Shown here: piece after piece, positions 15,225-29,503 of the stretch | Numbering within the stretch: the first letter of the stretch is position 1 | Layout: each line of letters begins with the position of its first letter | Assembly (NCBI RefSeq): GCF_002804125.1 | Contig: NZ_CP024966.1 | Coordinates: 620,001-684,000, forward strand | Reading direction: 5' to 3' | From: Mesoplasma entomophilum | Lineage (GTDB): Bacteria > Bacillota_I > Bacilli_A > Mycoplasmatales > Mycoplasmataceae | DNA length: 64,000 nucleotides | Notes under the pieces: model-generated | The model's database searches: none | Told to the model about the DNA's origin: nothing | Seen by the model: only the letters and a program-made list of their open reading frames with translations | Made by a program: the position numbers and the translations under genes

Positions 15225-18209
15225 TTAATACTTACCTAATAAAGGTTTTTGCAGCACTCATGAAGTTGTATTGGAATCAAAGTTTTCATATGATTTTACT
15301 TTATTCACATTTCATAATCCTAAATTTTGATTAAAATTAATTGCGTTCTTGAACATATTATTCATACTATTTAAATTTGCTGTATTTCACCCACTTATAT
15401 CCTGATTAAAATTCGTAGCTCCGCCAAAAGTTGCATTCATATTTGTTATTCTTGACACATTTCATCGTTTTATATTAGCATCATTAAATTTTTTTAAATT
15501 AAAAAATGCTGAATATAAAGAAGTTATTTCAATTGGCAAGTATGGTGAAATTTTTTCTAAATTTTCGGGCAATCTACCTATTACAAATGCTTCTTGGTAA
15601 TAATCTATACCTATTTGATAAACTTTAATACCATCATTTTTATTTTCAAGTGAAACAGTGGGCGGATAAACTTGAATATTTCCTTTCGAGTCCTCAGCTA
15701 TTGTTTCTTGTTTTAAGCCATCTCTACCCATTTCTGCCATGTAATAGCTTACTCTTTTTTCTCCGCCTGAAAGAGTATAGTAATTTTTATATTGATCTTT
15801 AATTTTTATATCAACAATACCACTGACATTATTAAAAGTAAACAACCTAAATTCAATTGCATTAAATTCTTCTTCAGTTAAATTCAAATATGCTATTGAT
15901 TTAGTTAAGTCTAAAAACTTATAGTTTGAGTTAACTGTAAAAACTTTTTTTACAGCTTGATCATACAATTGATATATTCTTGTTGTATCAATATATTTCA
16001 TAAAAACTATTTTATCACTTGTTACTATAAACTCGCCATTAAAATTTAAGTCATTTCATTTATAAGTTGAATCAATAAGTTCTAACTTAACTTTTATAAA
16101 TTTGTCATCTTTATTCACTTTTCGAGAACTTACAACTTTAACACCTGAAGCACTAAATTTTTTATATTCTTCAATCGCCAGATTTTCTGGTGTTTCTTCT
16201 GTTAAAAAATTATTCAAAAGATTTTGTATATCACTAACAGAAACAACATTAACATTTCAGTTATGCTTTATAGAAGTTGAATTAGAATATTCTAATTTTT
16301 TATTTGATAAAGATCATTGACCACTAAACATTCAGGTATCTTCGTGAAATTCTACATCTAAATGCTGATTTTTGCTTAAGGAAAAAATAATAACAATTAT
16401 TTTGCCTGGACCATATTTTTTGTCTACTGCTTGTTGCAATTCTTCTTTATTTCAAGCTTTATTCTTATGTTCATTATCATTAACTAATGAGTATAATTCT
16501 GAACTAATAATTTCAATATTCTTACTATTGTCAAATTTTGGTTTTGCTAAATTTCAGCTTTCAGTTTTTATATCAAAATCATCAACATTAATTACATTGT
16601 AAACATCTCAACTGCTTAGATTTTGATTAAAAGTATGAGCATTTTCAAACATATGATCCATCTTTGTAACTTTCTCTGTATTTCATTTACTAATATCTTT
16701 GTTAAATTGCGAAGCTTTTGCAAATGTATATGACATTAATGTTACTGATTGAGTATTTCAATTAGATATATTTCCATCAAATTTGCTTGCTTCATGGAAA
16801 GTTCCATACAAAGAAGTAACATTTGAAGTATCTCATAAACTTAAATCTTGATTAAATTCAAAACACTGATTAAACATATTTGTTAAGTTTGTTGCACCAG
16901 TTGGTAAGTAACTATTAATTTGTCTAATTTTTGATGGCATCATAGGTACTTGACCTTCAAAATTATAACCGATTTGGTAAATAGTTTCAGTATCAATTTC
17001 TCTGACTGAAGGCTCATTTTCATTAGCAAAATTTACAGCTACAAAAGTTTCTGTCTTATTGTCATAATAAATAGTACTTTGATTTTTTGAATTGTTTGTT
17101 CAACCATTCAACTTTACATCAATTTTGTTAGATAGTTTATACTTAACATTGTTTTTGGGATAAACAATTATTTTTCCTTTATTTATTGAAAATTGGATTA
17201 AATCAAATATTTCTGATGATGTATTCATTTTTATAATATATTCAATAGTTTTTTCAAGATCTTTCTGAGTTGAAGTGTTAAATGATAAATCAGATAACTT
17301 ACTTAATAACGTGCTTAATTCTTTTGTATCAATTATTTTTCTGTTATCAACTTGAACTTTAATTTCAAAATATGTTGAACTAATAATATAGTTATCTTCA
17401 TCAATAGTTATATTGATTTCAAAAACTGCATTTCCATCATTTTCACTCGGCTGCTTTTTATTTACTGATATTGTTTTAACTCCATTTGGTTTATGAATAT
17501 TTTTTAAAGCACTAACAACTTCTGAATCACTCATGCCATCTTTTACCGAGTCTTCAAAAGTTTGTTTTAGGATATTGTAATTAATAGTTTCCTTCTCACC
17601 AATTCTTATATCAACAGTAAATGTGTTGTTTCCATCAAGTTTATAATCTTCGTCCAATTCAACACTGAACTTAACTTGTTCATTTGATCAATGATAATCA
17701 TTTGTTTGAAATTCAACTGATTTAATACCTGCTATATTTATTATCTCATTTTCAATTGCAGTTTGAGCCGCTTCCAAAGTTACATAATCGCCTTTAACCT
17801 TATTAGCTGCAGCTTGAATTTCACTTGCAGCTAAAACTTTATACATTTTTCAATTATGAATTAAAGTTATTTCACCTATATAAGAACTTTTATCATTCGA
17901 CATTCCATTTCCAATAAATTTTCAGTTCTGGTTATAAACACCATCAGTTATTTTTTTCACTTCAGTTTCTGTTTCTTCAACAGTTATTTGTTCTTCACCA
18001 TATTTTTGATTAATTTCATCTTGCAAATCTTTTACTGCTCATTTTTCTTCTACTTTTGATTTCAATAAATTTTGTAAATTTTTTTGAAGTGTTTTGACAT
18101 GAACTTTTTCTAACTTACCTTTTACCAAATTTGAATTACATGATACAGCTAAAATAACACCATTTATTGTCAAAGTGGTTGCTGCTAAAAAACTTATTAA
18201 TTTATTCAT
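15225..18209 (-). CDS. BspA-like (DUF285) surface lipoprotein 1
   Basis: 994-residue lipoprotein. The signal peptide reads MNKLISFLAATTLTINGVIL, with lipobox LAVSC (Cys 25), so it should be lipidated and displayed on the cell surface. Two copies of a module begin W-x4-LQ-x3-[VI]-[DN]-x2-YG-x3-I-x-V (near residues 55 and 590). Two blocks of DUF285/BspA repeats, of the form FNQ-x-[LI]-S-x-W-[ND]-[VT]-x3-x-M-x2-MF, lie near 420-530 and 930-985. The closing sequence ENFDSNTTSW-x-LQKPLLGKY matches the end of lipoprotein 2. DUF285 repeats are leucine-rich-repeat-like adhesion modules; the ligand is unknown. The gene is preceded by a decayed LacI regulator and an operator-hairpin. GGGGGTG precedes the ATG. 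Confidence 0.9.
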
Positions 18210-18260
18210 AAAAACACCCCCTGCGTTTCTTTGTATTAAATATATGTTACCAAAAAAACA

Positions 18261-18306
18261 AAATAAAACATAAAAAATGAAACGTTTCATTTTTTTATGT
18301 TTTATT
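18261..18306. promoter_or_regulatory. Operator-bearing hairpin upstream of lipoprotein 1
   Basis: A long inverted repeat of about 22 bp per arm with one bulge, centred on the palindrome ATGAAACGTTTCAT. It lies between the LacI pseudogene stop and the lipoprotein start. The hairpin followed by a T-rich stretch can terminate regulator transcription, while its centre matches a LacI-family operator, so one sequence may serve both roles. Confidence 0.65.
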
Positions 18307-19261
18307 TAAACTTTATTTTATCAAATTGTTCTTCAGTTGTTTCATCACCAAAAAAGATTTAACTATTTGCCTTCCAACTTTAAAATAATCAATAGTTATT
18401 TTTATATCTGCATCTACCATTTTTTGAGAGAAATCATCTTTTCCTATATCAGATATTATAAACTTGTCTCTTAAATTGCTTCTGTATAAAAATTCATATA
18501 AAGAAACACTTAGAACATGAGTTTCACACGCAACTATATTCGCTGGGCAATATTCTGCTGTTTTTTCCATTCACTGAGTTATTAATGAGAAGTCATTTTT
18601 CTCTAAATAGTGAAAAGTGACAGAACTTTTTTTAATTCCATTTATGAAATTATTGTGAACCTCTTGAAACATTTTTTGATTTAATGTATCAGCATTTTTA
18701 ATGCCTAAAAATGCAATATTATTATTTGGTAATTTCTGATCAATTTTTTCTGCTAAATTTTTAAAAATTTATGGAAAATTTATGGAAAAATGTTTTACTC
18801 CTTAGATTTTATAATTGTAGGTTATTTATCTCTGAACTCTTTATTTCTTTAAGAACTTTAATTAAAGAAGTATTTACTTTTTTAGACATAAAAAGAAATT
18901 ATTCCCAACGGATTTCTTTGAGTTATGTATTTAATATCTTTTTCATAAATTTCGGGATTTGGTGATGACATAAACTGAAAAAAATATTTCTTAAATTTAA
19001 TTCAAATTTAATACCATTAATTAGAGGCATATTTATTGCTTCATTTTCTGATGAAGGAGTTACAACATAAATATCAGAGTTTTTCTTTCTTAAGGTTGAT
19101 GCAGCAAAATTAGGAACATAATTTATTTCCTTTAAAACATTATCAATTTTAATTCTTGTTTTATCAGAAATTTTTTCACCATTAAAATATCTTGAAACAG
19201 TACCAATAGCTACATTTGCCATTTTAGAGATGTCATGATAGGTTATATTATGTTTGCTCAT
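18302..19261 (-). pseudogene. Decayed LacI-family regulator
   Basis: Close paralogue of the intact regulator upstream of lipoprotein 2. The first ~93 residues are intact (MSKHNITYHDISKMANVAIG, HTH present). A 4-nt deletion in the A-rich stretch at about 18982 then shifts the frame; the intact copy has four more bases there. The middle holds a duplicated TTTATGGAAAA and other indels. The C-terminal part resumes as MEKTAEYCPANIVACETH. It ends early because a run of T residues is one base short; restoring it gives KSFFGDETTEEQFDKIKFK. At least two independent frameshifts show loss of function. A truncated HTH polypeptide could still be made. Confidence 0.88.
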
Positions 19262-19373
19262 TTACTACCTCTCTTATATTTTAACTTTATTTTATAATCT
19301 AAAAAGACAAAATAAAAACATTTAAATATTTAATTATAATATAAAATAAAAAGTGAAGTTTTTCTAGCATCAC

Positions 19374-19709
19374 CTATAACTTTTTTAAATTTTCTTTATT
19401 AATTAATTTTTTAGCTTTTCATTTTATGTTTATAGTTTTATTTTCCAATATAACTACAAAACCTTTTTGAGAACTCATTCAACAATTCTACTTTTTTTCA
19501 AATGTTACAACGTTTACCACGAAGTCAATTTTAAAGTAAGAGAAATCTTTATATTTGTTGATTTATTTTTGATGATATAAAGTATTGTTAACTTTTCTAT
19601 TAAATTGGGCATCTTTTTCTTTATAAAATAACAGTAGCTTTATTTCTTTTTGTTTGTATGTAGATAATTGTTTTATATTAATACAAAAAGAAAGCAAAAT
19701 AATATATGT
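19374..19709 (-). pseudogene. Probable decayed gene, unknown family
   Basis: One frame runs 112 codons between stops if two internal stops (at 19563 and 19488) are ignored. The pieces look protein-like: KQLSTYKQKEIKLLLFYKEK, DFVVNVVTFEKK, MSSQKGFVVILENKTINIKW, ending KKLINKENLKKL. No motif I recognise; no clear start codon with ribosome binding site. Best read as an old, inactivated gene. Confidence 0.35.
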
Positions 19710-19739
19710 TTAACTATTCAAAAAATAAGGTGATTGAGT

Positions 19740-20190
19740 ATGTTTAATAACAGTAAGGGGGGTATTTATGACAGCAGGAAAAAAGTTATTTTTTTATTTC
19801 TAAATGGATTACACATAAATTATAAAACTCTTGGAAATTACAAGATAATATGAGACTTGATAACACTTACTTGTAAAAAGTAGCACAAAGTAGAAATTAA
19901 ATATGCTAAAGTTAAATACAATTGTTCGATTGATGGGAATTAAATTCTTGAACTTAGATAGTATTGTAGCTAAAGTTTTTTCATAATACCTGGAACAGGA
20001 ACACATAATCACGTTTATTTATCAGTTGCAATTAGTTATAAAAAATATGAAAAAATGAGTCAAATTAGTTCATAATACTTTAGATAAACTGAAACATGAA
20101 TTTATTTTACATTATTATAATGTTTTTCATTTTTTTCATACTAAGTTACTAAAAAAGTAAAAGAAATGAATTTACAAATATTTATTAGTA
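19740..20190 (+). pseudogene. Broken plus-strand frame with intact ribosome binding site
   Basis: This is the only plausible plus-strand coding trace in the window. AAGGTGAT precedes ATG by 5 nt, then 47 codons beginning MFNNSKGGIYDSRKKVIFLF run to a TAG at 19881. The same frame goes on across further TAA/TAG codons with pieces such as HKVEIKYAKVKYNCSIDGN and PGTGTHNHVYLSVAISYKKY. This suggests a once longer protein. I cannot name it; a transposase or toxin remnant is possible but unsupported. The 47-residue product alone could still be translated. Confidence 0.3.
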
Positions 20191-20350
20191 GAATTGAAAG
20201 CTCATTAAATAATAAAAAAGTTGAGTATTTTTTAGTTGTTTAAAAACTTAGTATTTTAATAGAATAAATACTTAAAAATAAGGTTAAAAAATTATGAACA
20301 GATACAAATATATAAGTTTTTACAAAAACCATAAAATACATAAATCTTTA

Positions 20351-20387
20351 AATTAATTAACGCAAGCCTTGCTAGCGTTAATTAATT
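20351..20387. repeat. Strong stem-loop, 13-bp inverted repeat
   Basis: AATTAATTAACGC (20351-20363) and its exact inverse GCGTTAATTAATT (20375-20387) flank an 11-nt loop. The loop itself contains GCAA/TTGC pairing. There is no T-tract on either strand, so it is not a classical terminator. It lies 95 nt beyond the lipoprotein 2 stop and could stabilise the mRNA 3' end. Confidence 0.6.
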
Positions 20388-20482
20388 ATTTAAACTATAG
20401 ATTTAATTTTTTCCAGAGGTTTATTCTGTAAGAATATCTTCTCAAAAGCAATGAGTTCCAAATTTAACTCATAATTGAAAAT

Positions 20483-23400
20483 TTAATGATTTCTACCATG
20501 AATACCTAAGATAGGCTTTGGCAATACTCATTTTGGAGTGTTATAATCAAAATTTTCGTAAGATTTTACTTTAGACACTTTTCAATACCCTAGATTCTGA
20601 TTAAAATTAATTGCGTCTCTGAACATATTATTCATACTATTTACATTAGATGTATTTCAAACACTTATGTCCTGGTTAAAATTTGTAGCTCCACCAAAGG
20701 TAGCATTCATATTTGTTACTCTTGATACATCTCATTGTTTTATATTAGGATCATTAAAGTTTTTAAGATTGAAAAATGCTGAATATAAAGAAGTTATTTC
20801 AGATGGCAAGTACGGAGAAATTTTTTCTAAATTTTCAGGCAGTCTACCTATTGTAAATGCTCCATTATAATGATCTATTCCTATTTGATAAACTTTTAGA
20901 CCATCTTTATTATTATTATTATTTTCAATAAAAATAGTAGGTTCATAAACACGAATGTTTCCCTTTGAGTCTTCAGCAATTATGTCCTGTTTTAGTCCAT
21001 TCTCGCCTATTTCTGCATTGTAATAACTTACTCTTTTTTCCCCACCTGAAAGAGTATAGTAATTTTTGTACTCATCTTTAATTTTTATATCAACAATACC
21101 GACAACATTATTAATTGTAAATAACTTGAAATCAATTACATTAAATTCTTCTTCAGTTAAATTTAAATATGCGATTGATTTAGTTAAATCTAAAAATTTA
21201 TAGTTTGAATTAACTGTGAAAGCTTTTGCTACAACTTGATCATATAGTTCATATAGTCTTGTTGTATTAATATATTGCATGAAAATTATTTTATCGCTTC
21301 TTACTTCAAATTCACCATTAAATCCTGAATCATTTCATTTATAAGACGAATCTACAAGTTCTAACTTAACTTTAATGAATTTGTCATCTTTATTTACTTT
21401 TTGAGAACTTACAACTTTAACACCAGAAGCAGTAAATTTTTTATATTTCTCAATTGCATCTTTTTCATAAGTTTTTTCAGTCAAGAAATTGTTTAAAAGT
21501 TCTTGTATTTCGTCAACAGAAACAACATTCATAATTCAATTGTGTTTTATAGATGTTGAACCTGAGTATTCCAACTCTTTATTTGTTAAAGATCATTGAC
21601 CAGTAAACGTTCAAATATCTTCATGAGATTCTATTGATGAATACTGATTTTTGCTTGAAGAAACGATTATTTTGTCTACACCATATTTATCGTTAACAGC
21701 TTTTTGTAAATCATTTTGAGTTCAAGATTTATTTTTATGTTCAGCATTATTTACTAACGATGATAAATCAGAAATAATTGTTTCAATATTTTTACTATTA
21801 TCGAATTTTGGTTTTGGTAATTTTCAATTATCAGTATTTAAATCAAAATTATCAATATTGGTTACTTTGTAAACATTTCAGCTGCTTAAATCTTGATTAA
21901 ATAGATTAGCGTTTTCAAACATATGATCCATTATTGTAACTTGCTTTGTGTTTCAATTACTAATGTTTTGATCAAATTGCAATGCATTTGCAAATGTGTA
22001 TGACATAGATAGTACTGCTTGAGTATTTCAACCAGATATATTTCCGTTAAATTTACTTGCCGCACAGAATGTTCCATATAAAGAAGTAACATTTGAAGTA
22101 TCTCATGAATTTAAATCTTGATTAAATTCTGAACATTGATTAAACATATTTGTTAAATCTGTTGCACCACTTGGTAAATAATTATTAATCTGTTTAATTT
22201 TTAATGGCATGATAGGTACTTGACCTTTTGAATTATAACCAATTTGATAAATAGTGTCAGTGTTAACATCTCTAACTGATGGCTCATTTTCAGCATCAAA
22301 ATTTATCGCTACAAATGATTCGCTTCTGTCATCATAATAAATAGTACTTTGGTTCTTTGAATTATTTCTTCAACCATTAAATTTAACATCAATTTCATCA
22401 GATAGTTTATAGTTAATATTATTTCTAGGAGAAACTTTTATTTTACCTTCAGCTACTGAAAATTCAATTAAATTATACAATTCTGATGATGTATTCATTC
22501 TTATAATATATTCAATAGTTTTTTCAAGATCAGTTTCACTAGAAGTATTAAACGATAAATTAGACAATTTATTTAATAATACGCTTAATTCTTTAGTATC
22601 AATTATTTCTCTATTATCAACTTGAACTTTAATTTCAAAATGAGTTGAAGTAATAATATAGTTAGCTTCATCAATAGTTATATCAATTTCAAAAACTACA
22701 CTTTCAACAATTCCCTTTGTTAGTTTTCTTTTTGCTAATATTGTTTCAACACCGTGTGGTTTTTGAATTGATTGTAAAGCACCAATAACTTCTTTATCTG
22801 TCATACCAGAGCTTATTGAATTTTCAAAAGTTTGCTTTAAATCATTGTAATTAATTTCATCCTTAGTTCCAACTCTATTCGCAGTTACTTCAAAAACATA
22901 TTTTGAAATTGTAAAGTTAGCTTCATCAATTGTAACTGTTGCTTCAAAAGTCATTGGATCAAATGATCTTGCATTACCTGAATCTTTAACTTTCGCACTA
23001 ACTTTTGTAACTCCCGCAAATTTAACTGTTTCTAAATTAGTAATTGCTTGTTGTTGAGTCATATCTTTTAAAACAGCTTTATTTAATTCAGCTTGCAATT
23101 TATCAACATCAATTGTATCTTTTTCACCAAATCTAACATTCAATGTAACTTCTTTATTACCTGTTAAAGTTAAATCTTTATTTTCTGTTGAAATAGCAAC
23201 TTTAACAACTTTATTATCATAAGCAAAAGTTGAAGAATCCTGAACGTCTAATGTTGCAACTAAATCCTTATGTTTTGCTTTAACAATAGCATCTATTTCA
23301 GATTGCAATGCATTTTGATCAGAAAAATCTTTACCATCAAGAGCTTGAATTGCTTTAATTGTTTCAACTAAATCAAAAATATCATTCTCACCAGTTCTTA

Positions 23401-25054
23401 TATCAACTGTAAATGAATTATTTCCTTCAAGAGAATAATTTTCTTTTAATTCAATTGTAAATTTAACTTGACCACCTGTTCAAGCATAATTACTATTTTC
23501 AAAATTAACTGATTCAACACCAGTCACACCTAAAACTGCATTTTCAATAGCTTTATGCGCTGCTTCCAATGTTTCATAATCACCTTTTACAGTATCTGTA
23601 GCAGTTTGAATATCACTAGCTAAAACTTTGTAGCTATTTCATATATGATCTATTTCGATATTTTCTGTGTATGAATAATCGTTAGACGCATCAGCGTTAC
23701 CTTTAAAATTAATTCTTTGTTTATTTTGAATGGTTGACGCCTTAAAATTAGTATCTTGATTTTTGATTTCTTCAACTGTTATTTCACCATTACCATATTG
23801 AATATCAATTTTATTTTGTAAATCTGAAATTGTTCATGGTTTGTCATCATATGATTTATCATTCAATATAGTTCCTAATTCTGAACTAATATTTTTAATT
23901 GATTCAGTTATTTTAAATTTATGTTCTAATTTAGTACTATTTTTATATTTAAAATTGTTGTCAAATTTTCCGTTACCTTTAAATTCAAATTCTTCAGTTT
24001 GGGGACCTAAATTATTTGATTTTAAATTCTGTGATGGTGAAACAGTTATTTCACCATTACCATATTGAGTATCAATTTTATTTTGTAATTGAACAAGTTC
24101 TCATTTTGAATCTTTTCTTTCATTTAAAATTGTTGTTAACTCTTGATCTAATTGACTTATTTCAATTCTTGAATCTCAATTTAATTTAATTTTAAAATTA
24201 TTTTCACCATCAAGAATATAATTTTGATTTTTTAAAATTAAAGAAAAACTGAATTCTGTTGTTGCAAATGCTCTTGTTTGATTTTTTTCTTTAAATTCAA
24301 CATCTTCAATACCTGATGAAACAGTTTTAACAGAATTTATAATCGCATTTTTCGCAGCTAATTCTGTTTCATAATAATCGCTACTAATTTCTTCAAGTTT
24401 TTTGTTAACAATTTCTCTTTCAATAATTTCTTGTTCAACGAAAGTATGTTTAATTTGAGTTGTTCCCACATATTTAAATTCATTATCTGAATTTGCATTT
24501 CCCTTTAAATTAAATGTTTGATTAAATTTATCTCCAGCAATGTAATTTTCATCTTTATTTACTTCTGAATTTGAAACTGTTATTTCACCTTTTCCATATT
24601 GATCATCAATTTTATTTTGTAATTCATCAAGTTCTCATCTTGAATGAGGTTTCATTATTAAAATATTTTTCTCTATATAATCTTTAGTTGATGAAACTTC
24701 TATTGTTTCTTTTTCATTAGTTTCATATTTTTGTATTAATTCAATTTGACCAGTATATTTTTTTTCGCATGCTAAAAATGAAAAAGTTGCCTCTTTTAAA
24801 GAAGAAATACTTTTTGCGTTTTTTAATGAAACAGTTATTTCACCATCACCATACTTTTCATCTATTTTTTTCTGAAGTTCATTTAAATCCCAAATTTTAT
24901 CATTTTTTTGATTTAAAATTTCTTGAATATCATTTTTTAATATTTGAATGTTAATTTTGTTGTTCTGATTATTTTGATTACTGCAAGAGACTCCTGCTAT
25001 TACCACATTTGCAGTTAATGTAACTGCTGCTAAAAAACTCATTATTTTCTTCAT
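20483..25054 (-). CDS. Giant BspA-like (DUF285) surface lipoprotein 2
   Basis: 1523-residue lipoprotein, in frame throughout with TGA as Trp. Signal peptide MKKIMSFLAAVTLTANVVIA, lipobox AGVSC (Cys 24). It has about five copies of the module W-x4-LQ-x-K-I-D-x2-YG-x-GEITV (near residues 53, 145, 320, 408 and, more diverged, 1105). Between them are repeated ITIDEANYIITSTHFEIKV-type beta segments. DUF285 blocks lie near 955-1060 and 1430-1505, for example FNGNISGWNTQAV. The C-terminus parallels lipoprotein 1, so the two arose by duplication; this copy is about 530 residues longer through extra modules. Likely a surface adhesin. Preceded by an intact LacI regulator and an operator-like hairpin. 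Confidence 0.92.
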
Positions 25055-25107
25055 AAAAACACCCTCATTGTCTTACCTAAAATATATGATAACAAAAATA
25101 AAAAAAG

Positions 25108-25144
25108 AACTATTAAAAATGAAAATATTTCAATTTTTAATAGT
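25108..25144. promoter_or_regulatory. Operator-like hairpin upstream of lipoprotein 2
   Basis: Inverted repeat AACTATTAAAAATGAAA / TTTCAATTTTTAATAGTT with one bulge, centred on TGAAAATATTTCA. Same position and design as the hairpin in front of lipoprotein 1: it follows the regulator stop codon and can act as its terminator, with an operator-like centre. Confidence 0.55.
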
Positions 25145-26110
25145 TTATTTAAAAATAATATCGTATACTTGATCGTTTGATGTTGTTTCACCGAAAAAAG
25201 ATTTAACTAATTGTCTTCCAACTTTAAAATAATCAATTGTTACTTTAATATCTGCATCAATCATTTTTTGAGAAAAATCATTTTTTCCAATGTCTGATAT
25301 TATAAACTTATTTCTTATATTGTTTCTATATAAAAATTCATATAAAGATACACTTAAAACATGAGTTTCACAAACAACTATATTTGCTGGGCAGTACTCT
25401 GCTGTTTTTTCCATTCACTCATTTATTGATGAAAAATCATTTTTTTCTAAGTAATGAAATGTTACAGGACTTTTTTTAATTCCGTTTATAAAATTATCAT
25501 GAACTTCTTGAAACATTTTTTGATTTAAAGTATCTGCATTTTTAATTCCTAAAAATGCAACATTATTGTTTGGAAATTTTTCATCAATTTTTTTTGCTAA
25601 AATTTTAAAAATTTCTGGAAATTTTATACAATGGTGCTTCATCCCTTCGATTTCATAGTTGTACGTTATTATTTCTGATACCTTAACTTCTTTCAAAGTT
25701 TTAATTAAAGAATTATTTATTTTTTTAGGCATAAAACAAATTATTCCTAGTGGATTTCTTTGATTTATATATTTAATATCCTTTTCATAAGTTTCAGGAT
25801 TTGGAGATGACATAAATTGAAAAAAATTAATATTTCTTAAATTCAATTCAAATTTAATACCATTAATTAAAGGCATATTTATTGTTTCATTTTCTGATGT
25901 AGGAGTTACAACATAAACATCAGAACTTCTCTTTCTTAATGTTGATGCTGCAAAATTTGGAACATAATCTATTTCTTTTAAAACGTTATCAATTTTAACT
26001 TTTGTTTTATCAGATATTTTTTCACCATTAAAATATCTTGAAACAGTACCAATAGCTACATTAGCCATTCTAGAAATGTCATGATATGTTATATTTTTTT
26101 CTTTGCTCAT
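25145..26110 (-). CDS. LacI-family regulator upstream of lipoprotein 2
   Basis: 321-residue repressor. HTH ITYHDISRMANVAIGTVSRY at residues 6-25, hinge YVPNFAASTLRKR near 50-62. The effector-binding domain contains RNPLGIICFMPKK near 134 and PANIVVCETHVLSVSLYEF near 240-258, the latter after a TGA-coded Trp. The start at MSKEKN is preferred over an upstream TTG because it matches the MSK start of both relatives. A TATAAT box is about 30 nt upstream. Intact sister of the pseudogene upstream of lipoprotein 1; may now control both operators (inference). Confidence 0.92.
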
Positions 26111-26180
26111 TTTCTTTCCCAACCTTTTTAATATATATTATAAAGAAATAAAATGAGTTGTTTCATTTTTAATTGCAAAT

Positions 26181-26208
26181 ATAGCAAAAAAGCTATTTAA
26201 ATAGCTTT
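26181..26208 (-). terminator. Terminator overlapping the stop of the membrane-HU gene
   Basis: The minus strand reads AAAGCTATTTAAATAGCTTTTTTGC: a 10-bp perfect stem then T6. The TAA stop lies inside the hairpin. Confidence 0.85.
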
Positions 26209-27423
26209 AATTTTCTTTTCTAAAACTTCAATTAGTAATAATATTTCTTTTTTAGTCATATTTTTTAACTTTTCTTTAAAAGCCTTTTGATCATATTTTT
26301 TATCATTTAGATCTTTTAATTTAATAGCGTTAGTCTCTAGTTCACTTCTAGAAATTTTTATTTGCTTTGAACCATCTACAGTTGATTTTTGACTTACAGT
26401 TAGTTTTTCTAAGTTTTCTTTTCTATTTTGTAATTCCTTTTTATTTTGTTTTTCAATATTGTTTAGAACTTTTTGAATATCATCAACTTTTAAATTGCTT
26501 TTATTTACTATTTTCACTTGATTAGTATTTATTAAACTTTTATTTTTTTCTGAAATAGCTTTTTTAACGGCTTTAACATTCATAGCATATTTAATTACTC
26601 TTGAAGGTTTAAATTTAATAACATTTGTTTCAGGAACAAATATTTGCTCACCTGTTAATGGATTATTTAAAACTTTTGCTGCTTTCATATATTTAAAGAA
26701 AACCCCAAAATTGTTTATATTAATTGTTTGATTTTTATTAATTTGGTTTGAAATTATATCAAATGTACTTTGAACTATTAATTTAATATTGGATTTAGTT
26801 AAATCCGGATAAATCAATTTTATTTTATGTTCAATATCTTTTCTTTTAACTTGAGGGTATTTTTTTTTTGTTTTTTTAAATCTGTTATTCTCTTTTGGAT
26901 CTATTACAACTTTAGAATCTACTAATTCAACTTTTTCAAAACTCTTATTCTCAGAAATATTATCAATATTTTGCTTATGTTTTAAGTTAACTTGGTTTTC
27001 TTTTATTTGAGTAACTGTTTCATTTGTTTCAACTAGATTATGCAGATTTTTTTTACTTTTTATGATTGTTAAAAGTTTTATAAATAATGAAGTTATGAAT
27101 CACAAAGTTACAACAATGAAAATTCAATTAATTACTAGGTCTCATAGCACTGGCAATAAGAATCTATAGTTTTCGTACAATAATTTAAAATGAACTACTG
27201 ATTTTAAACCAATCGGACCTAAAAATAAGTCAACTGTTATTTTTCCGTTTGAAAATCAATTTTCATTTATTTTATCATTTTCTACACTTAAAATAAAAAC
27301 TTGTTTTCAGTCATTATTTCCTAAAAATTTTTGATTGATTATTTTTAGAATTATGACTAGACTAATAAACACAAAGTAAATTGCAAATATTTTAAATATT
27401 TTTTTGTTATTTTTTGTTTGCAT
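26197..27423 (-). CDS. Membrane-anchored protein with HU-like DNA-binding domain
   Basis: 408-residue fusion. Two hydrophobic helices (about residues 9-29 and 89-118) flank a roughly 60-residue segment that should lie outside the membrane. A charged linker (122-185) is followed by a complete HU/IHF-like domain at about 188-285. Diagnostic pieces are ININNFGVFFKYMKA and LNNPLTGEQIFVPETNVIKF, matching the HU pattern GxGxFxxxxRxxRxGRNPxTGExxxIP-like. A highly charged, coiled-coil-prone tail runs to the end. HU is normally a free 90-residue nucleoid protein, so membrane tethering is unusual. It starts 13 nt after the surface protein 3 stop, hence the same operon. Role inferred: linking nucleoid and membrane, or DNA uptake/segregation. 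Confidence 0.88.
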
Positions 27424-27436
27424 ATTTTACTCCTTT

Positions 27437-29449
27437 TTAATAATGTCTCATATTAATTAAGAAACCATTTGTGTCTCTTGATTCACGGTACTCATTTCAA
27501 AACATATCTGACTTATTTGAAATTTTTGTATTTTTTCCGTTAATGTTTATTTGCCCTGTGTATTCAGATTTTATGTAGTGATTAAATTGTTTCATTTCTA
27601 CTCTTATGTAATTAAAATGATATCAACCAGCAAGTGTTCTTGTTCTTTCTAACCCAACAGTTTCAACTCTTAAAATTGAATGCCTCTTTCTAAGATCACT
27701 CGCCTTATCGCTATTCAATAAATTTACTATTTTGTTTACATTATCTGCTTGATTAAACGAAGCTGATTGTGGATATTTGTCAAACAAACTTTTAATATCA
27801 CCTTTAAGTGCTTCATATGTAGTTTCATAATTTTTAACTTTTAATGTTATTACACCAAAACCTTTATATTTTTTTGAAGAATTTTTTGCTTCTATTTTAA
27901 CTGTAAAAATTGTGTAACCATTATCATTTCAATCTTTTCTTTCAACATAAGTTGCTGTAAAATTAGAATCTAAAGCATCGTCTTGTAAATTTAAAGTTTT
28001 GTTGAATTCTGATAAGAAATTATATTCATAAATATCCTCAACTATTTTTGGTGAACTAAGTTGTGCAATTGAATCACTATAGATTTTTGTTAAATGGCTA
28101 ACTTCTGTTTCTACAAAACAATCATATTTACCTACAAAATTATTACTTCCTTTTTTTGGTGTAATATTTATAGTTGTTAAATATTCGCTTGAATTTTTTG
28201 AAAGTGAATTTGGCTTTAATGTTTTTGTAAATTCTAATTCATTTTGAGTTTTTGAATCAATTTTAACATTATGTTCTTGATAAGCGAAATTAATAAAATC
28301 TTTCAATTCAGTTTGTTCTGTTATTTTTTCTTGAGGATAATCTTTAAATAATTCATTTATATTTCATTTTAATTGAGCTATTTCATTTGTATGAGCCCCT
28401 ATTACTCTTCTCGATTTATCCGTAGCAACAGTTTTAATTGAACCTTTTGTTCCAGCACTTGGAGAAGTTATTGTTATATTTACTTCTTCTGCTTTTAAGT
28501 CTTCAAGACCTTTAGTTTTTCTTATTTCATTTATTACATCTTCTTCAGTTGTTTGTTCTAATGGTACAAAACTTATAAGTGCTCTAGATAAAGGGATTTT
28601 TTCTAAAGCCGGTATTTTAATAATTTTTGAATTCCCAAATACTAAATTAGATTCTTCATTTGGTGCTATTTCTACTCTTCCATCAATCCCAGGAGTAGAT
28701 TTTATTTTTGAAACCATTATATCATCTACAGAAAAACTTGCATTTTTTAAATCTTTATTATTTGCATTAACATAATTAACAACTTCTTTTGCTATTTGTT
28801 CTTCAGGTTTAACATTAATATCTTCAGGATTCAAAATATAATCTTTTAAAACATCATTTAAATCTTTTTTTGGTAAAGCATCAAAAGAATTATTTCAATA
28901 ACCTTCAATTGCATTTGATCTTGCACTTGCTACAACACTATAAAAGCCATCAGACCCAATTAATTCTTGTTTTTTTGATATGCTTAGGTCTTTTGAATTA
29001 ACTTTATAAACTTGATTTAGTTCATTATTTATAATGTCTAATATTTCTTCTTGAGTTGTTAAATAATTTATTTCATTAGCATTTAATGTTAAAATTTGAT
29101 TTATATTTGCCTTCTTAGGGTATATTTCATGTGTTCCTTTTAAAATGAAAGAATTCGGATTCGCTGTTATTAAAACTTTACCTACAAATGAAACATCTGG
29201 CTTAATAATTTTAATACTAAAATCTGATTTACTAACTTCCAATAGATTAGAATTTGAATTCTTCATATAATTAATAAGTTCATTTTCAATATCAGTTTTT
29301 GACAAATTAATATTTGATACGTAGTAATTGTCAAAAATTTCTGATAAATCAATTTTAGTAGCAGTCGAAACGCTGTTATAAGAGAAAATAGCTGATATTC
29401 CAGTAACTGTAAATGAAGATGCTGACAATAAAGTTAATATTTTTTTCAT
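27437..29449 (-). CDS. Large secreted/surface protein 3 with altered lipobox
   Basis: 670-residue protein with a signal peptide like the neighbouring lipoproteins (MKKILTLLSASSFTVTGISA). Where the others have V-S-C it has IFSYNS: the lipobox Cys is Tyr (TAT instead of TGT). It may therefore be secreted or anchored by an uncleaved signal. The rest consists of repeated beta-rich segments of about 100 residues (NPNSFILKGTHEIYP, VYEYNFLSEFNKTL) with no family I recognise. It has no DUF285 repeats. A LacI-like operator lies at its promoter, and the membrane-HU gene follows 13 nt downstream. GGAGA precedes the ATG. Confidence 0.85.
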
Positions 29450-29488
29450 AAAACTCTCCTTGTTGAAGTAAAAATGAAATGTTCTATT

Positions 29489-29503
29489 TTGAAACGTTTC
29501 CAA
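29489..29503. promoter_or_regulatory. LacI-type operator upstream of surface protein 3
   Basis: TTGAAACGTTTCCAA is near-palindromic around GAAACGTTTC. It lies directly downstream of a TATTATAAAT -10-like box, the same geometry as the treB operator. There is no dedicated regulator gene directly upstream, so one of the LacI proteins in the window probably acts here. Confidence 0.65.

Follow-up and report, generated by a model that had tools for sequence, protein, structure and literature searches.

The window (the whole 64,000-nucleotide stretch of the Mesoplasma entomophilum genome that was analyzed) harbors, on its minus strand, a reading frame that begins with ATG and runs uninterrupted only if its five TGA codons are read as tryptophan, the code used by this genome (one contig of 847,966 bp). 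A reading with translation table 11 was discarded because it breaks the gene and lists the C-terminal 206 amino acids alone. The gene follows a co-oriented gene for a secreted surface protein (Table 1), whose product resembles the spiralin-repeat surface protein of Mesoplasma coleopterae that is linked to a gene of the same type (blastp 24%, E = 9e-7). Elsewhere in the window, two large lipoproteins encoded at 15225-18290 and 20483-25054 share 64% identity over ~960 aa, each accompanied by a LacI-family gene, the lacI copy at 18313-19261 being broken; the region 15225-26122 has the appearance of a lacI-lipoprotein unit duplicated in tandem.

Table 1. Features of the window gene and its upstream neighbor, and kinds of two-TM HU (TM-HU) gene and related genes. 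Positions refer to the window unless a locus is named.
Feature	Position	Strand	Description
TM-HU gene	26197..27423	-	408 aa, predicted membrane-anchored HU, code 4
Shine-Dalgarno sequence AAAGGAG	27430..27436	-	6 nt before the ATG, immediately past the TAA of the upstream gene
Secreted surface protein gene	27437..29503	-	upstream, co-oriented; signal peptide present, lipobox Cys not apparent by eye
Predicted transmembrane helix 1, residues 12-30	27334..27390	-	Kyte-Doolittle; helix 4-34 in the AlphaFold model
Predicted extracytoplasmic loop, residues 31-102	27118..27333	-	conserved W, WF, GP.G..S (alignment A2)
Predicted transmembrane helix 2, residues 103-121	27061..27117	-	Kyte-Doolittle and model; preceded by conserved P91, D95, N99-W100
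Charged flexible linker, residues 122-193	26845..27060	-	low-confidence segment 126-185 in the AlphaFold model
HU/IHF domain, residues 194-287 (Pfam 207-282)	26563..26844	-	NNFG, NPLTG arm tip
Tail motif 1, possible amphipathic helix, residues 316-330	26434..26478	-	around VLNNIEKQNKKEL; by eye against the upstream regions of other tails
C-terminal tail module, residues 339-408	26200..26409	-	DGS...TKKE; A4/A6 profiles, E = 2.3e-22
Kind (a), mnmG-linked			adjoins mnmG; all g1 genomes, G007 (g2), G161
Kind (b)			~3 nt downstream of the gene for a surface protein (~1000-1250 aa) that bears a TM helix at its C-terminus; several Mesoplasma, M. syrphidae
Kind (c), TM-tail-HU operon			529-aa lipoprotein, 78-aa protein, TM-HU, 75-aa XRE regulator
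Kind (d), M. tabanidae	L064:3274-8683		armless HU, one TM helix, ~270-residue external part
Kind (e), window copy			ATG 13 nt past the stop of 27437..29503, whose product is related to the kind (b) partner
Kind (f), M. coleopterae			TM domain and tail, without HU

The two N-terminal transmembrane helices described in the earlier note were recovered both by Kyte-Doolittle analysis and in the AlphaFold model, and the domain that contains them is kept in relatives at 27-35% identity, with W39, W56-F57, G69-P70, G72, S75, P91, D95 and N99-W100 invariant in the alignment. The ratio of lysine and arginine to aspartate and glutamate is 4/0 at the N-terminus, 7/7 in the loop and 63/33 over everything past the second helix; this charge bias supports a predicted N-in/C-in topology, which would place the HU segment in the cytoplasm and not outside the membrane. 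In the TM-HU proteins of relatives, the linker evolves fast. The AlphaFold model (runs with 19 and 43 alignment rows) leaves the relative placement of the domains unfixed, because the whole-protein pTM is low (0.31).

The HU assignment put forward in the earlier note is borne out at the level of profile and fold: residues 207-282 score 60.1 bits with PF00216 (cut-off 22.4; E = 2.6e-16), the model of residues 194-300 displays its elements in canonical HU order, and Foldseek with this model returned HU/IHF chains (best E = 3.7e-7; target-normalized TM scores of 0.74-0.83 for the leading matches). The arm tip reads NNPLTGEQ, retaining the intercalating proline and the TG, and the arm keeps basic residues alongside NNFG and NPLTG. 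In domain profile, fold and NP.TG arm tip the protein agrees with the HU/IHF family, of which Spiroplasma melliferum HU (PDB 5l8z) is an example. However, it is not a classical HU: whereas the latter is a free, soluble cytoplasmic protein of ~90 aa, the HU domain of this 408-residue protein sits after two transmembrane helices and a long linker, and before a C-terminal tail. Bacterial HU-CCDC81 clades, reportedly described by Burroughs et al. in 2017, are said to combine an HU-superfamily domain with membrane links and a suggested role in chromosome partition; they differ from TM-HU in HU clade and in lineage, and none of the profiles PF14908, PF18174 and PF18175 passed its cut-off (18.6 bits against 26.1 for PF14908 with the window protein; PF18174 also below cut-off in relatives). 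Sequence and model together support a protein of HU/IHF fold that is anchored in the membrane.

Sequence, model and conservation thus agree on a nucleoid-protein domain with its own transmembrane anchor, an architecture like that of Rv3852 from Mycobacterium tuberculosis. TM-HU is predicted to be, as Rv3852 is, a nucleoid protein held to the membrane by a hydrophobic segment of its own. Rv3852, confined to M. tuberculosis and closely related species, binds DNA and is tethered to the membrane at the same time, and the nucleoid is then more diffuse (PMC8233713); together with Noc, discussed below, it provides a precedent for the proposed function. Unlike TM-HU, Rv3852 is not an HU protein (it is annotated as H-NS although unlike H-NS) and has a single, C-terminal transmembrane helix. 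TM-HU would be a second type of membrane-built nucleoid protein beside Rv3852, itself called 'unlike any other NAP' (PMC8233713). A full-text literature search, which covered few subscription journals and so does not prove absence, found no paper on membrane-bound HU.

A search for such fusions and their neighbors returned five TM-HU genes in M. entomophilum, which together with one ordinary HU of 90 aa make up its six HU genes, and TM-HU in 12 of 12 genomes from three related genera (g1, g2 and g9). This count combines an A2 profile search with reading of the loci: the profile detected the TM domain in 7/7 genomes of g1, 1/1 of g2 and 2/4 of g9, and the two g9 members outside it carry a diverged two-TM HU gene at the corresponding position. 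Weak A2 matches in g7 genomes, with E around 1e-4 or 1e-6 and interrupted by many stops, were attributed to chance. The named relatives are M. tabanidae (G001), M. chauliocola (G002), M. coleopterae (G003), M. florum L1 (G004), E. melaleucae (G005), M. grammopterae (G006), E. freundtii (G008), W. luminosum (G018), W. somnilux (G123) and M. syrphidae (G142); G014 is probably M. seiffertii and G156 probably W. lucivorax. In an HU tree (88 columns, weak deep support) the TM-HU proteins group together, and the TM label needs three changes, which a single gain followed by two losses would explain, one of the losses being a broken gene; the best explanation of these sequences is a single origin of the family, or close to it, within the Mesoplasma/Entomoplasma group. 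In the broken gene (L047:4286-5157, G014), stops split the TM part from the HU part, and a surface-protein remnant adjoins it.

The most conserved copy is the one linked to mnmG, which in M. entomophilum lies 15 kb from dnaA. In G164 purA-purB is inserted between mnmG and TM-HU, and in G014 and G142 TM-HU follows purB. The HU domain of the mnmG-linked copies is under purifying selection (dN/dS 0.11-0.13), with values of 0.09-0.33 for the TM domain and a relaxed linker, and this copy is best explained as the ancestral TM-HU. The same neighborhood bears on chromosome partitioning. Neither ParB_N (PF02195) nor ParA profiles matched the M. entomophilum genome, the PF02195 control being positive in ten genomes. 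By profile, a ParA-ParB pair occurs in 42 of 60 family genomes and is absent from g1, g2, g3, g4 and g9; all 12 TM-HU genomes lack it, against 42 of the 48 others that have it, and scattered ParA-like matches without ParB were found (for example in G156 and G164). Where ParAB is present, the gene order is mnmG, permease, rsmG, parA, parB, ychF (L136) or mnmG, BMP lipoprotein, ABC genes, rsmG, parA, parB, ychF (L137); G007 has mnmG, TM-HU, permease, pgsA, rsmG, ychF (ParA and ParB named by profile; mnmG, ftsH and rsmG by blastp; other genes by eye). In Bacillus subtilis, noc also lies within an mnmG-rsmG-parAB neighborhood. The gene orders at mnmG-rsmG therefore indicate that ParAB loss and TM-HU gain touched the same neighborhood. 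The link between the two is suggestive only, because it comes close to a single event on the tree and because g3 and g4 have neither; a strict rule that TM-HU replaces ParAB was rejected on the latter ground, as TM-HU is evidently not required upon ParAB loss.

We propose that TM-HU acts as an integral-membrane HU that tethers DNA at the cytoplasmic face of the membrane. The two-helix hairpin with its conserved external loop would fix the protein in the membrane, and the flexible charged linker would let a cytoplasmic HU dimer reach DNA and bind it without strong sequence preference. Judged from sequence and models, such tethering is reasonably likely to be the main activity of the family. Noc of B. 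subtilis likewise brings DNA to the membrane, but it has a ParB-type fold, associates through an amphipathic helix instead of a transmembrane one and recognizes sequence-specific NBS sites; a synthetic transmembrane anchor made Noc stably membrane-associated without giving function, which speaks against the proposal (PMC4331003). For the family, chromosome anchoring appears the most plausible role, because it accords with the mnmG/oriC-linked copy and with the lack of ParAB: in cells without ParA/ParB, the ancestral copy near oriC would probably help to anchor and separate the chromosome. That such anchoring stands in for ParAB is plausible, although essentially a single evolutionary event underlies it. 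Insect-associated Mesoplasma may hold its chromosome to the membrane in a manner not previously described for HU. A fuller scenario, in which chromosome anchoring and separation after ParAB loss in Mesoplasma/Entomoplasma are carried by membrane HU, with the shared tail described below, movable between ribosomal proteins, transporters and membrane HU, coordinating nucleoid, ribosomes and membrane, is offered tentatively and is, as a whole, doubtful. The proposal bears on how near-minimal wall-less cells segregate their chromosomes without ParAB; M. florum L1, a near-minimal laboratory model, carries the mnmG-linked gene. In the related minimal cell syn3A, HU is reported to be essential, yet its count is very low beside those of E. 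coli, B. subtilis and M. florum (PMC10445541).

Most TM-HU paralogs, the window copy included, are co-encoded with secreted surface proteins. The kind (b) partners in M. coleopterae and M. syrphidae contain spiralin domains; kind (c) TM-HU overlaps the XRE regulator gene by 14 nt in several species (L061:4095-7370, L062, L054, L055, L058, L059); and the HU gene of L064 is flanked at 3-4 nt by two secreted-protein genes. These copies would have been duplicated into surface-protein operons and would probably keep DNA close to the places on the membrane where surface proteins are made. They could instead be membrane-bound regulators, as the earlier note had raised for the adjacent surface genes, in which the external loop, by receiving signals or through its state of assembly, alters DNA binding or bending at nearby surface-gene promoters. 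This would be consistent with the co-encoding of most non-ancestral copies with surface proteins, the overlap of the tail-containing subgroup with a repressor-like XRE gene and the conserved loop residues, but HU generally has little sequence specificity, and the mnmG-linked copy has no surface-protein partner common across genera; we regard regulation as rather unlikely.

The HU arm itself varies among paralogs. The NP.TG tip or a close variant is kept in most TM-HU proteins, and the NP tip is lost in the kind (c) subgroup and the whole arm in L064; in view of these losses, the HU domain in both may be a protein-protein module. Some HU-like clades, such as CCDC81, have roles that do not involve DNA. 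A broader reading, in which HU serves as a dimerizing protein-protein or scaffold module and DNA binding was lost in duplicated copies including the window one, draws on these precedents and on the long branch of the window copy, yet that copy keeps NNFG, NPLTG and the basic arm residues, and the HU domain of the mnmG-linked copies is strongly constrained. Such a general loss seems unlikely, and DNA tethering remains the preferred reading.

The 'long charged tail' of the earlier note is indeed charged, but it is not only low-complexity sequence: part of it is a module of ~70 residues with invariant D-G-S, L and T-K-x-E positions, helical in its AlphaFold model (pLDDT 85) and preceded in many carriers by a short motif, D.L..ME.KY...L, recognized by eye. 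The module occurs in 17 genomes, from g1, g2, g3, g9 and one g10 genome; the other 280 genomes of the order sample gave none, apart from 22-residue matches in G139 that were dismissed as chance. In 17/17 genomes at least one carrier is a ribosomal protein (S6, L20, S16 or S5). S6 bears the tail C-terminally in all seven g1 genomes (for example L104:2492-3373; at 106 kb in M. entomophilum), S6 and L20 in G007 and three Williamsoniiplasma, L20 in E. freundtii and G161, S16 in G014, G142 and G164 (the last with a frame break in the draft), and L20 and S5 in G193. The module also ends PTS EIIBC in several genera and FtsH in W. somnilux (L106:8692-10734, L116, L120, L122, L127, L132, L125), and it is found on two-TM proteins. 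Carrier domains were assigned with Pfam/NCBIfam for representatives and by sequence similarity for the remainder. No Pfam family covered the tail in scans of representative carriers, a tail profile against the PDB gave a best E of 0.022 (partial helices of unrelated proteins), and no Foldseek match to the PDB fell below E = 1; a best VIA Z of 4.8 (Sak/Stl, epsilon antitoxin) carries little meaning when the domain is small and helical, and it does not prove a new fold. The NCBIfam entry NF011109, 'L20/unknown domain fusion protein', likewise records an extra C-terminal domain on L20, but it covers L20 only, whereas the tail module is shared with other proteins; L20 of G161 scores 149.5 bits against it, below the cut-off of 187.

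A tail that shifts from one ribosomal protein to another, yet is never absent from all of them, points to an undescribed ribosome-attached function. In the window copy this extra module, which ribosomal proteins and transporters also carry, probably binds a further shared partner. In another reading it would be a docking element that links ribosomes, transporters and membrane HU through a common partner and makes the window protein chiefly part of a ribosome-membrane organizing network. The range of carriers, the constant presence of a ribosomal one and the folded helical model speak for docking; by contrast, the window tail has diverged (25% to the S6 tail), the mnmG-linked TM-HU of g1 is tail-less, and S6 is the sole carrier in M. 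florum and E. melaleucae, which means that direct bridging to a membrane protein is not obligatory and led us to reject compulsory tail-to-tail contact. As the chief role of the window protein, this is improbable.

Within the family, the branch leading to the window copy in the HU tree is very long (1.88), and no ortholog was found among the relatives; for these reasons it may have drifted in function. It is a fast-evolving, species-specific paralog whose particular job is uncertain, and any particular role for it is less secure than tethering by the family. That it is a recent, decaying and functionless duplicate would agree with this rate and restriction and with duplicated and broken genes nearby (the lacI remnant), but its 408 codons are intact behind a good ribosome-binding site, all invariant TM-domain residues are kept, and both HU and tail are still recognized, so that decay is very improbable and a working membrane-anchored HU is preferred.

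A wider contig scan with the TM domain returned no match, probably because the pattern required W, which is TGA-coded here. A second scan, with the HU region as query, gave M. grammopterae as the one named match, together with a Gammaproteobacteria MAG at 29% that is probably an ordinary HU. Among the matches listed, the other HU genes of the order sample are of ordinary length, except for long ones in g10 and E. freundtii, which are without the N-terminal TM pair. In both g10 genomes (L048 and L072), two further long HU proteins (228-246 aa), also without this pair, are encoded near each other.
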